IMG/VR virus record: IMGVR_UViG_3300024346_011137
Coordinates: 1-48,432 of that record
Direction: 5' to 3' (one strand)
DNA length: 48,432 bases
Source: a virus
Shown: in pieces, positions 1,352 to 5,064 of the stretch
How the letters are laid out: each line of letters starts with the position of its first letter
How positions within the stretch are numbered: position 1 is the first letter of the stretch
The notes under the pieces: generated by a model
What the model was told of the DNA's origin: nothing
Seen by the model: the letters and a program-made list of their open reading frames with translations, nothing else
Database searches by the model: none
Program-made: the position numbers and the translations under genes

Positions 1352-1849
1352 ATGAATGCCTCCAAATTTTATATTCCTGAACTTAATAGACTTTCAATTG
1401 TAAACAAAAGTATTTTTGCAAATATTTCTGTTCCTGGTCATATTACTGATTCAAAATTAATATTTTCAAACTCTTGTAATATAATTATTCCCAGGCTAAT
1501 TGAACTTCAACTATATGATTCTATTGAGAAACGAATATGCAATTATTATAAAGGCTTTCAACAAGAAACTATAGTGGAATTTAAGCTATTAGAAAACAAA
1601 ATAAATACTAATTTTGTCATCCCACATTTTGAATGTAAAAACTTCAAATGTTTGTCTTGTAACAAAATCCACACCAAAGATGCAGATAAATGTTGTGAAA
1701 TGAAAAAATCAATTTTAGAAATTTATGATTGTAAATTATATAAAATTACAATTCCTAAGCTGGATGAAATTAATATTAAATTAGAAGAAAGCAGAGATGA
1801 ATTTGTATCTTTGCATTTTCCAAGTTTGATGGATACAATAATGCTATGA
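1352..1849 (+). CDS. Hypothetical protein with Cys cluster
   Basis: A 165-residue protein. Around residues 97-115 it has a cluster of Cys and His (Cys-Lys-Asn-Phe-Lys-Cys, then Cys-Asn-Lys, His, Cys-Cys), which may bind zinc. The rest is Ile/Leu/Asn-rich. The start is uncertain because no Shine-Dalgarno is visible and the first ATG abuts the divergent minus-strand start. The stop overlaps the next ATG (ATGA at 1846-1849), so it is the first gene of the recombination-nuclease operon and may serve it. No function is assigned. Confidence 0.7.
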   Translation: MNASKFYIPELNRLSIVNKSIFANISVPGHITDSKLIFSNSCNIIIPRLIELQLYDSIEKRICNYYKGFQQETIVEFKLLENKINTNFVIPHFECKNFKCLSCNKIHTKDADKCCEMKKSILEIYDCKLYKITIPKLDEINIKLEESRDEFVSLHFPSLMDTIML

Positions 1850-3129
1850 GCGAAGAAGTATCAATAAATAGAAAAGTAAAATATATCCGGCTCACTAATT
1901 TTCAAAATCACAAAGAAACAGTGATAAAACTTGAAGATGGGCTGAACATGCTTACGGGTTCTAATGATAATGGTAAATCTGCTATTGTTAGAGCTATCGC
2001 ATTTGTTTACTATGGCAAAAGTGTTGAAGATTGTATTTTCTGGGGAGAAAATTTCACATCTGTTGAATTAGAATTTTTTGACAACTCTGCTGTCAGAAGA
2101 ATCAAACATAAAGATTACAACAAAATTGAAATTAGAAACTCAGACGAAACTGAATTTAAATCATATAAGGGATTTGGTACAAAATACCCCGAAGCTGTTT
2201 TAGATTTCTTGCAAGCTCCTATCATTCATAAAGAATTAGGATATTTAGCATATTCTGAACAATCTAACAAGAATTTCCTTATTGACATTCTTCCATCTCA
2301 TCTTCCAAATGTAATTTCATCCATTATTGGTGTAGATGACCTTGAGGAAGCTTCTAAAGTATTGTCTACAAAAACATTAAGAATAAATGACAAAATAAAT
2401 ACTTTAGAAAATGAAATTCAAGAAATAGATAAAGAAATTGAATCTGATTATTCAACATTAGATGAAGATATAGATAGTTATGATTCTGCTAAACAACTAT
2501 TTGATGATGCAGAAATCTTAAATTCCACCTTATCGGAAATGTCATCTTGCCAAGAGTCTTATTTAGAAATTCTTCGCAAAGGCAATAAGATTAAGAATGA
2601 AATCAAATATTACAAGCAAATTATTGACATTCTTTCTACAAATATAGATGAGATTGAAGATATCAATGCTGTTGCTACTAGTATGGAAGATCTATTTAAC
2701 AAGATTGAAACTAATCAAAAAACATTAGATTCAGTAGATAAATTTATCAATACTGTTCAACCATTCATTGATGAAGAGAAAAATATTACATCTTCTGAAA
2801 ATATGAATAGAAGTTTATCTTTCATGGAAGAGCATATTGAAAAAGTGAATTTAATTAATTCTCAAATCAAAAATGTTGAAGATACTCTTGAAAATATCAA
2901 TTTGATTATTAATGAAAAAAGTGAAATTGAAAAAGCTGAGTTTTATTTGTCAGGTGTAATTTTAGCCAATCCAATTCAAACTAACTATGATACTAATCAA
3001 AAAAGCATTGAAGAAATTGACAATGAATTGAAGCTGTTGAACAATGATTATTCAGTTCTTATTGAAGAGATTACAAATAAGAAACTATCTTGTTCAAAAT
3101 GTAAGACTATAGGAGGAGTGAAAATATGA
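1846..3129 (+). CDS. Rad50/SbcC/gp46-like ATPase, N-terminal half with zinc hook
   Basis: A 427-residue protein matching the N-terminal half of Rad50/SbcC/T4 gp46. It begins with the typical fold (LTNFQNHKE), has a Walker A GSNDNGKSA at about residues 39-47 and a Q-loop-like Ser-Glu-Gln near residue 140. About 260 residues of coiled coil then follow and end in Cys-Ser-Lys-Cys near residue 417. That CxxC looks like the zinc hook that sits at the apex of the coil in full-length Rad50. The protein stops 10 residues after the second Cys, so there is no returning coil, signature motif or Walker B. Those lie in the gene at 4366-5064. It overlaps both neighbours by ATGA, so translation is coupled. 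Identity as an N-half is strong; the hook assignment rests on position and CxxC. Confidence 0.9.
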   Translation: MSEEVSINRKVKYIRLTNFQNHKETVIKLEDGLNMLTGSNDNGKSAIVRAIAFVYYGKSVEDCIFWGENFTSVELEFFDNSAVRRIKHKDYNKIEIRNSDETEFKSYKGFGTKYPEAVLDFLQAPIIHKELGYLAYSEQSNKNFLIDILPSHLPNVISSIIGVDDLEEASKVLSTKTLRINDKINTLENEIQEIDKEIESDYSTLDEDIDSYDSAKQLFDDAEILNSTLSEMSSCQESYLEILRKGNKIKNEIKYYKQIIDILSTNIDEIEDINAVATSMEDLFNKIETNQKTLDSVDKFINTVQPFIDEEKNITSSENMNRSLSFMEEHIEKVNLINSQIKNVEDTLENINLIINEKSEIEKAEFYLSGVILANPIQTNYDTNQKSIEEIDNELKLLNNDYSVLIEEITNKKLSCSKCKTIGGVKI

Positions 3130-4094
3130 AAGTTTTATTTGTAGGAGATAATCATATTGATGGCAAAACTCCTCAAAATCGCACTGACAACTATATGGAA
3201 GCCACTTTAAGAAAACTTCAAGAATGCATGCAAATTGCTGAAGACAGAAAAGCAGATGCAGTGGTTTTTCTTGGAGATGTTTTCAATCACAGAGAAGTAA
3301 GTCCATTAGCTAGAAATGGTGCACTTAAAATTCTCAAATCTCAAAGTGATGGAAAGGCTTGGTCATTCCCATCTTATGTTGTTGTTGGGAATCATGACAT
3401 CCAATCTTCGCATCCTCTTGAAAATAGCAGCTTGGGAACTTTAATAGAAGCTGGTGTATTAATTAAGTCAGATTATGAGCCTAGCTTAGGAATTGCTTTT
3501 GGACATTTTACTAATGATTTAGATAATGAAATCAGAGAAGGTAAATTGACCACTAATTCTGCCATTATTTGGGCTTGCCATGCTTCCATCACAGATAGAC
3601 CTTCTAGGTTTTCTGAACACACTATTCTATTTGATTCTGTGTCTGTTCATCCTAACAATGTTTTAGTGATTTGCGGACATATTCATTATCCTATGGAAAT
3701 GATAAGAGATGATGGAAAATGGTTTGTTAATCCTGGAGCTATTGGAAGAATGGCAGCTTCTAAAGATAATTTCGAAAGAGATTTGAAAGTTTTTTGGCTC
3801 GAATATGAACTTGATGGAAATATTATCGATAAGAGATTCATTCCATTGAAATCTGCTGAAAATTACAAGAATATTTTTAGATTAGAAGAAATTGAAGTGA
3901 TTAAGGCAGAGAAGAAAGAAGTTCAAGAATTTATCAAAAAAGTTTCTTTGATTCGAGCTCATAATTGGAACTACACAACTTTAGACGATAAACTCATGGC
4001 GCTAAAAAGCTATGGCACTGAAAATAAAATTCATGATAAAACCATCGACATTGCGATGGAAGCAGTAAGATCAGTAAACGAGGAACAAAAATGA
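3126..4094 (+). CDS. Mre11/SbcD/gp47-like nuclease
   Basis: A 322-residue calcineurin-like phosphoesterase and the nuclease partner of the Rad50-like ATPase. The metal-binding motifs occur in order: GDNHID (residues 7-12), LGDVFNH (about 49-55), GNHD (about 88-91), a CHA segment near 151 and GHIH near 180. The C-terminal approximately 90 residues are charged helix, probably the ATPase-contact region. In cells and T4 this complex processes double-strand breaks and feeds recombination-dependent replication. The gene lies between the two halves of its ATPase, with ATGA overlaps at both ends, which would favour co-translational assembly. Confidence 0.92.
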   Translation: MKVLFVGDNHIDGKTPQNRTDNYMEATLRKLQECMQIAEDRKADAVVFLGDVFNHREVSPLARNGALKILKSQSDGKAWSFPSYVVVGNHDIQSSHPLENSSLGTLIEAGVLIKSDYEPSLGIAFGHFTNDLDNEIREGKLTTNSAIIWACHASITDRPSRFSEHTILFDSVSVHPNNVLVICGHIHYPMEMIRDDGKWFVNPGAIGRMAASKDNFERDLKVFWLEYELDGNIIDKRFIPLKSAENYKNIFRLEEIEVIKAEKKEVQEFIKKVSLIRAHNWNYTTLDDKLMALKSYGTENKIHDKTIDIAMEAVRSVNEEQK

Positions 4095-4369
4095 GTGAAG
4101 AATTGACCTATGCAGAAAGAGTTCAGAAATTAAGAACGAGTTTAGATAAAGCTACTGCAAGAAAAGAAGAAAAAGAAGAAACTCGTAAAAATTTGATTAA
4201 AGATTTTGACAATCTTAAAGCCAAATGCAAAGAACTTTTTGATTGTAATATTGATGAGCTTGCAAAGAAGATCATTGAAAAAGAAGAGCAACTTGAAAAG
4301 CTTATATCTGATTCTGAAGACAAACTAAAAACTGTCACTGATAATCTAAACAGCGGTAAAGATGCATGA
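4091..4369 (+). CDS. Small coiled-coil protein between SbcD-like and SbcC C-half
   Basis: A 92-residue protein that is almost entirely charged helix with heptad-like hydrophobic spacing, rich in Lys and Glu, with Cys at about residues 47 and 52. It overlaps its neighbours by ATGA at both ends. It sits exactly where the returning coiled-coil arm of a Rad50/SbcC chain would be encoded. I infer that it may supply part of that arm, or bridge the two ATPase halves. It has no ATPase motif of its own. The minus-strand frame over it is a shadow. Confidence 0.8.
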   Translation: MSEELTYAERVQKLRTSLDKATARKEEKEETRKNLIKDFDNLKAKCKELFDCNIDELAKKIIEKEEQLEKLISDSEDKLKTVTDNLNSGKDA

Positions 4370-5064
4370 CACTGATTGAATTAAAGAAGAGTTTGGAGTC
4401 TTGTAATTCCAAACTCTTAGTCATGAAAGCTAGAAGAGATAAATTACAAGAAGATAAAGTTTTAAAAGAAGATAAGTTGGAATCTGAAAAAGATGAAAAG
4501 TTTCATACTAACCAAGCTTCTTTATTGCTAAAATCTCAAGCTGCTGACACTAGAAAAACAGCTCTAGAAGCTATAGATGATATGACTACACAAGCTATCA
4601 AACCTATGTTTGGTGAAGATTATAGCTTCAAATTTGATTATGATGCTAATGCTTTAGATAAAGGGCTTAAATCTGGATTCAATATCACTCCAAAAATCAC
4701 AAGTATCATTAATGGACAACCTCTATCCACTTCAATCAAAGAAAGTAGAGGCGGTGGATTAATTGAAGTGATGAGTGTATTATTGAGATTCTCATTCTTA
4801 AGATTGATTGGATACAATGGTCTAATAATTTTAGACGAAACTTGGGTTAGTGTTTCTAATGATGAAAAGCTGAAGAATCTTATTAAGTTTCTAAATAGCT
4901 ATATTGAAGAAACTAATATTCAAGTTTTATTAGTAACTCATAGAGCTGAATTGTTTGGAAAAATTTCAAATAACATTTTGAAAGTTTACAAAGATGACGG
5001 TGTTGGTAAATGTATTCCTATATCTTACGATGACTTGATTGATGGAATGAAATCTATAGAATGA
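4366..5064 (+). CDS. Rad50/SbcC/gp46-like ATPase, C-terminal half
   Basis: A 232-residue protein carrying what the 1846-3129 gene lacks. It has a coiled coil at about residues 1-75, the ABC signature region ESRGGGLIEVMSVLLR (near 125-140), Walker B GLIILDETW (about 153-161) with the catalytic Glu, and a His switch in LLVTHRAE near 190. There is no Walker A. It should therefore form a composite ATP site with the N-half. The coil is much shorter than the N-half arm (about 260 residues), unless the 92-residue coiled-coil product completes it. ATGA overlaps at both ends indicate coupled translation. Confidence 0.88.
   Translation: MTLIELKKSLESCNSKLLVMKARRDKLQEDKVLKEDKLESEKDEKFHTNQASLLLKSQAADTRKTALEAIDDMTTQAIKPMFGEDYSFKFDYDANALDKGLKSGFNITPKITSIINGQPLSTSIKESRGGGLIEVMSVLLRFSFLRLIGYNGLIILDETWVSVSNDEKLKNLIKFLNSYIEETNIQVLLVTHRAELFGKISNNILKVYKDDGVGKCIPISYDDLIDGMKSIE

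Follow-up and report, generated by a model that had tools for sequence, protein, structure and literature searches.

The window analysed here is a full IMG/VR virus record (IMGVR_UViG_3300024346_011137) of 48,432 bases, whose genes for a large terminase, a portal protein, a clamp loader and a UvsX-like recombinase indicate a tailed phage. Between positions 1846 and 5064 it carries a set of four genes that resembles a Rad50 ATPase divided around its Mre11-like nuclease (Table 1). The set is composed of a gene for the N-terminal half of the ATPase (N-half), the nuclease gene, a gene for a small helical protein (coil) and a gene for the C-terminal half (C-half). An initial annotation, made from the letters alone, had described this arrangement, and our reading of the sequence confirmed the four genes at that location, their overlaps by ATGA (at 3126, 4091 and 4366), the Walker A motif in the first gene and the arm that ends at Cys-x2-Cys (CxxC). 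The same ATGA overlap joins the set to the preceding gene (1846) and to the following one (5061). The N-half had been said to stop 10 residues after the CxxC; the actual count is 8, and the C-terminus of the protein reads ...LSCSKCKTIGGVKI. As for the last gene, Walker B was found as described but the signature of the ABC (ATP-binding cassette) ATPases is not canonical, RGGG replacing LSGGE. The search of the window for introns or RNA elements gave no Rfam match and no transfer RNA.

Table 1. Features of the split Rad50 set in the window and of the armless fusions in three related genomes (L numbers designate the loci of the comparison).
Feature	Position	Strand	Details
Rad50 N-half gene	1846..3129	+	427 aa; N-lobe with Walker A and Q-loop; 250-aa helical arm; AAA_23 3.5e-10; phrog_16465 4.7e-26
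Walker A GSNDNGKS	1957..1980	+	residues 38-45 of N-half
Zinc-hook CSKC, Cys416-Ser-Lys-Cys419	3091..3102	+	residues 416-419 of N-half; invariant in 21-row alignment A8
AGGAGG, putative Shine-Dalgarno-like site of nuclease gene	3111..3116	+	within N-half tail codons (KTIGGVKI)
Mre11/SbcD-like nuclease gene	3126..4094	+	322 aa; Metallophos_2 1.6e-12
Coil gene, proposed third Rad50 polypeptide	4091..4369	+	92 aa; two helices around a conserved break; 75 residues align to coil family model
Rad50 C-half gene	4366..5064	+	232 aa; short helix and C-lobe; phrog_15167 1.5e-21
RGGG replacing LSGGE signature	4747..4758	+	C-half
Walker B ILDE with catalytic glutamate	4828..4839	+	residues 155-158 of C-half
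H-switch histidine His192	4939..4941	+	TH, residues 191-192 of C-half
Armless single-chain fusions	L139:4758-6815, L140:6655-8760, L141:6086-8182		AddB/AddA-like genes directly after (read from sequence)

Each of the two halves resembles one part of known Rad50 proteins. The N-half of the window aligns to positions 2-407 of the 878 of the archaeal Rad50 model PRK03918, that is, to the half before the hook. A profile built with 23 N-halves matches Rad50 structures (5f3w_B, 1.6e-18; chain A of PfRad50, 1f2t_A, 5e-10) and, weakly, the Rad50 hook structure 6zff (3.3e-4), and the top matches of a profile of 23 C-halves were the separate C-terminal chains of PfRad50 (3qkr_B, 7e-14; 1f2t_B, 1.3e-12). 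The AlphaFold2 (AF2) model of the N-half, which we read for the lobe fold and not for the arm geometry, matches 1f2u_A and 9a9j_A, and the structural model of the C-half matches 1f2u_B with a template modelling (TM) score of 0.82 by target and 2.6 A. Since profiles and structural models match those chains, the natural halves correspond to the two chains of the crystallographic PfRad50 ATPase. The C-halves retain Walker B DE and the H-switch, and in most of them LSGGE is replaced by RGGG and then V, I or L. To set the register of this signature we used an ungapped alignment, in which Gly falls on the Ser and Arg on the Leu; the hidden Markov model (HMM) alignment put the Arg on the signature serine. 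RGGG or something similar was present in all 47 C-halves, indicating a divergent Rad50-like lineage rather than a canonical member.

The nuclease of the window keeps the phosphoesterase motifs (D8, H10, D51, GNHD, H152 and GHxH). Its profile matches SbcD and Mre11, and the protein is extended at its C-terminus by a segment with conserved positions. Motifs I-V (DxH, GD, GNHD, H, GHxH) are kept in the Mre11-like nucleases of the relatives, with the exception of Microcystis phage Mvi-JY20. Here the protein (L007:4633-5592) has GQHD and GDTH for GNHD and GHxH, and because of these substitutions its activity may be altered. On the Mre11 tree the nucleases of the split lineage separate from five partners of single-chain ATPases with 98% support in the Shimodaira-Hasegawa-like approximate likelihood ratio test (SH-aLRT).

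Other phages contain the same parts. The gene order of the window, which the initial annotation had proposed to look for elsewhere, is present in Mvi-JY20: N-half (CSQC plus 14 residues), Mre11, a coil of 94 aa and C-half. Bacillus phage vB_BboS-125 has instead N-half (CPLC plus 9 residues), a gene with an AP2 domain, a coil of 78 aa, C-half and an Mre11-like open reading frame (ORF). This ORF (L001:5363-6340 in NC_048735.1) falls in a gap of the deposited annotation. The location of the nuclease gene between the halves therefore holds for the window but not as a constant feature, as its position varies among relatives. The Bacillus-phage type was found at 27 IMG/VR loci, vB_BboS-125 among them, and in 4 named Bacillota genomes, and a 485-kb phage (LR745208) has all the parts within about 8 kb. 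In Tunturiibacter phage Tunturi_5 the halves are far apart, and the N-half ends shortly after its CxxC (CGKC). For the window itself, the IMG/VR search found no close relatives of its C-half or nuclease, and the phage records gave no DNA match to it. A further candidate family, phrog_1499, was rejected because L048, its full-length member, has the CxxC in the middle of one uninterrupted chain.

The place where the chain is interrupted is constant. In all the 55 hook-bearing loci compared, the N-half stops 3-32 residues after the CxxC (median 19), which is never more than 36 residues from the end. Conservation of the CxxC was the point on which the initial annotation had staked its proposal; the motif is kept in 55 of 55, and Microbacterium phage Magritte, outside this set, is the exception. 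The 55 cannot be counted as independent events, as there is kinship among the loci (one plasmid appears twice, as L101 and L161); even so, they include proteins that are only about 20% identical. As every one of these homologous loci stops near the CxxC and has a coil gene, chance or a sequencing error does not account for the break. We also considered a split intein at this point and rejected it, because the N-half tails are too short for an N-intein. One could still think of the halves as products of gene decay, or of a single gene broken by a mobile element, leaving an inactive enzyme. The AP2-domain gene that several Bacillus phages have between N-half and coil fits the entry of a mobile gene, and the signature serine has been lost. 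However, despite this low identity the 55 loci share the break point, the frames, the coil gene and the residues of Walker A, Walker B and the H-switch, and the chromosomal copies retain their gene overlaps. Decay would not preserve every part, and we consider it very improbable.

Genes with an AP2 domain or similar lie between N-half and coil at L001:3523-4095, L015:5062-5598 and L018:2524-3060, and also at L032, L034, L035 and L041; among their proteins, that of L001 is the one that was compared with Pfam. Such a gene may be mobile and related to the fission.

The split form occurs in many Bacillota. With a threshold of E <= 1e-40, a stand-alone C-half was found in 50 of 398 genomes of Bacilli (2 of the 50 had been found in a prior search), and 61 of 398 genomes sampled across the phylum had one. 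Split Rad50 is present in about 1 in 7 of the sampled Bacillota genomes, with an Mre11 gene close by. All the 35 genome loci that were fetched have an N-half that stops shortly after CPxC and individual genes for coil and C-half, and in 23 of them (15 of 20 and 8 of 15) the set is flanked by recA and rny, the gene of RNase Y. One genome locus has a ParB-like gene, read from the sequence, between coil and C-half (L149:5628-6464). Plasmids carry the set as well, among them Geobacillus subterraneus pGspE55-1, Paenibacillus polymyxa pSC2, Bacillus velezensis p3 and those of an Aneurinibacillus sp. and an Alkaliphilus sp., in which the C-half is annotated as 'hypothetical protein' or 'ParA'. Single-chain SbcC was found in 2 of 20 genomes with the split form versus 14 of 20 without it (Fisher p = 2.4e-4, in a comparison that ignores the kinship of the genomes). 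This rarity is as expected of a replacement.

The genomic location also bears on another possible identity, that of a defence ATPase of the Lamassu (LmuB) type, Rad50-like but not dedicated to DNA repair. The N-half of the window matches LmuB models (2.5e-10, residues 10-410), that of a Bacillus phage does so better, at 1.4e-14, and LmuB is also short-armed and often has a zinc hook (PMC10586767). The partner of LmuB would be the effector LmuA, but the nuclease next to our N-half is Mre11/SbcD-like without a PADLOC match, Walker B retains the glutamate that LmuB has usually exchanged for another residue (PMC10586767), and the genome copies are often located between recA and rny. With such a partner and a Walker B that is not degenerate we rejected the LmuB identity, which seems scarcely credible.

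Natural fusions connect the parts in a different way. Mre11 is fused to the N-half in three plasmids (Aneurinibacillus, Geobacillus and P. polymyxa), with coil and C-half as separate genes. In three genomes (L139-L141) Mre11, N-lobe and C-lobe make up a single chain of 686-702 aa that has neither arm nor CxxC, and no coil gene was detected there. These armless proteins are the only one-chain forms found in the split lineage. The Mre11 tree places them within the split clade (97% and 100% SH-aLRT), and for this reason they look like re-fusions in which arm, hook and coil would have been lost together. The fusions are relevant to the idea that the halves are separate proteins, the C-half being a distinct ATPase and the hook-bearing N-half a tether or the partner of some other protein. 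The genes for N-half, C-half and Mre11 are indeed far apart in Magritte, and several genomes have intervening genes. Against this, neither half has a complete ATP site, each of them matches one lobe only, both halves were present in every locus examined for both, and in L139-L141 both lobes are fused to Mre11. We regard separate functions as quite improbable. The proposal of the initial annotation that the ATPase is built from separate polypeptides is strongly supported by this comparison, since the profiles of the halves match the lobe chains of PfRad50 and natural fusions exist.

The coil proteins form a conserved family, 75-95 aa long across relatives and with a matched length of 72-81 in all but one locus, and most of them match PHROG 18563 (unknown). 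The gene is present in 55 of 55 hook-bearing loci and was not detected in the three genomes with armless fusions or in the hook-less phage Magritte. Being present wherever there is a hook-bearing arm and absent without arm or hook, the coil very likely belongs to the arm, and we infer that it is part of the return arm. It might otherwise be a co-transcribed regulator or adaptor outside the arm, with N-half and C-half making Rad50 alone. The family is not one straight helix but has a conserved break, and the N-arm has its own repeat of 47 residues and a variable length that the constant coil does not match, as could be expected of such an adaptor. The distribution of the gene over hook-bearing, armless and hook-less loci speaks for the arm instead, making a role outside it unlikely, though by no means negligible.

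The repeat of the N-arm was detected by self-similarity in 33 genome arms (z = 31 at an offset of 47 residues and 26 at 94) and in the Bacillus phages (z = 15.1 and 11.5 at the same offsets), and is not clear in the N-arm of the window. Walker A and the CxxC are separated by distances that group around 383-389, 429 and 476. In the N-halves of L083-L100, L142-L156 and the Bacillus-phage loci, these repeats go with length steps of about 47 residues, unlike a plain heptad coiled coil. Beyond the CxxC, the phage tails contain many Cys and His residues, 30 versus an expected 3.6 over 19 unique tails (for example CPLCEQTHKGGGC, CPLCEQAVAHTH and CPLCDQPVNKGACC; see L001:3482-3520). They could provide additional zinc ligands, which gives the impression of a zinc site completed inside a single chain. 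The tail of the window N-half has no Cys or His.

Taken together, the comparison indicates that the four genes very probably encode a divergent Mre11-Rad50 complex, similar to SbcCD and gp46-47, whose Rad50 is divided over three polypeptides. The three would assemble physically as follows. The N-half would supply Walker A, the Q-loop and the outgoing arm, terminating at the zinc hook, and the C-half the signature, Walker B and the H-switch. Homology and the natural fusions suggest that N- and C-lobe co-fold into one ABC head, as do the PfRad50 fragments made as two chains, and two such heads would engage with ATP between them. The coil would pack on the arm, most likely replacing part of its return portion, and pairs of N-halves would clasp through their CxxC hooks. 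Mre11 would bind near the base of the arm and trim or cut DNA ends, which may feed recombination by the phage with its own UvsX-like recombinase.

Several observations weigh against this reading. The signature serine, which in known Rad50s contacts ATP across the dimer, was found in 0 of 47 C-halves in the ungapped alignment, and since it is missing family-wide ATP binding in the split Rad50 may differ. The length of the N-arm varies and that of the coil stays, so that the available return arm, made up of coil and C-half helix, usually has about half the length of the N-arm. Several copies of the coil may make up the difference, or the N-arm may fold back on itself. The AF2 model of the N-half has a predicted TM score (pTM) of 0.33 and does not settle the geometry of the arm. 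The proteins of the window share only 15-31% identity with their relatives, and on the Mre11 tree its nuclease has a long branch. To these are added the N-half without CxxC of Magritte and the kinship of the genomes in the SbcC comparison.

The two-chain structures of PfRad50, the Rad50 of the archaeon P. furiosus (1F2T/1F2U, 1II8 and 3QKR), likewise have the N- and C-lobe folds on separate chains. In those crystals, however, the split was made in the laboratory and most of the arm removed, whereas here it is natural, located at the hook and accompanied by a separate coil protein; the signature of PfRad50 is LSGGE and not RGGG. Bacterial SbcCD and T4 gp46-gp47 are similar in that a nuclease of the Mre11 family and a Rad50-like ATPase are encoded side by side, but there the ATPase is one chain, of about 1,000-1,250 aa for SbcC in the genomes analysed here and of 560 aa for gp46. 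Enzyme chains divided over two genes are known, as in Aeh1 NrdA. The passages found in a review of jumbo phages (PMC7824862) describe split Pol III alpha and RNA polymerase subunits, different enzymes in which one chain likewise comes from two genes; phage SbcC is treated there as the ABC ATPase partner of SbcD, and these passages report no split SbcC. Mre11/Rad50 fusions were found sporadically in phages and plasmids (Mimivirus R555 and twelve others; PMC3175470) and, like the ones described here, have Mre11 N-terminal to Rad50 in one chain. Some of our Mre11-N-half fusions differ in being completed by separate coil and C-half genes. In two of these fusions, published in 2011, one P-loop segment was not observed (PMC3175470), and perhaps they are the same phenomenon; a text search of that paper found no mention of a split Rad50. 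PHROG lists 16465 (exonuclease, the match of the N-half), 15167 (ATPase, the match of the C-half) and 18563 as separate families, without linking them as one split Rad50. We found no description of a split, bipartite or two-polypeptide Rad50 or SbcC in the open-access literature, and other literature may mention one. With this proviso, we call the three-part Rad50 with a natural break at the hook new, within the known Mre11-Rad50 kind.

Rad50 is central in the repair of DNA breaks, and the location of the long arm and the hook in mid-chain makes both difficult to dissect. A Rad50 cut by nature at the hook, with a separate coil gene and armless relatives, makes each part removable, swappable and titratable. 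In a broader sense, a large section of the Bacillota, together with phages and plasmids, might use an unrecognised Mre11-Rad50 that replaces SbcCD, in which three Rad50 polypeptides meet at the hook, the arm has 47-residue repeats and carries a small exchangeable coil, and the ATP site has no signature serine. We regard this as nearly, although not quite, as probable as its opposite. If true, the apex of the arm would be a site of chain ends, at which the ring could open or have parts exchanged. The complex would be the likely DNA end-processing enzyme of Bacillota without single-chain SbcC, encoded by genes that are currently labelled 'AAA family ATPase' and 'hypothetical protein'.

Some neighbouring genes deserve mention. 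In jumbo phages a sliding-clamp-like gene, read from the sequence, lies between coil and C-half (L006:4816-5949 and L044:7895-9010). Family searches gave no significant match for the product of the gene just upstream of the set in the window (1352-1849), a protein of 165 aa with a Cys-rich stretch (CKNFKCLSCNKIHTKDADKCC) whose gene is coupled by ATGA to that of the N-half.

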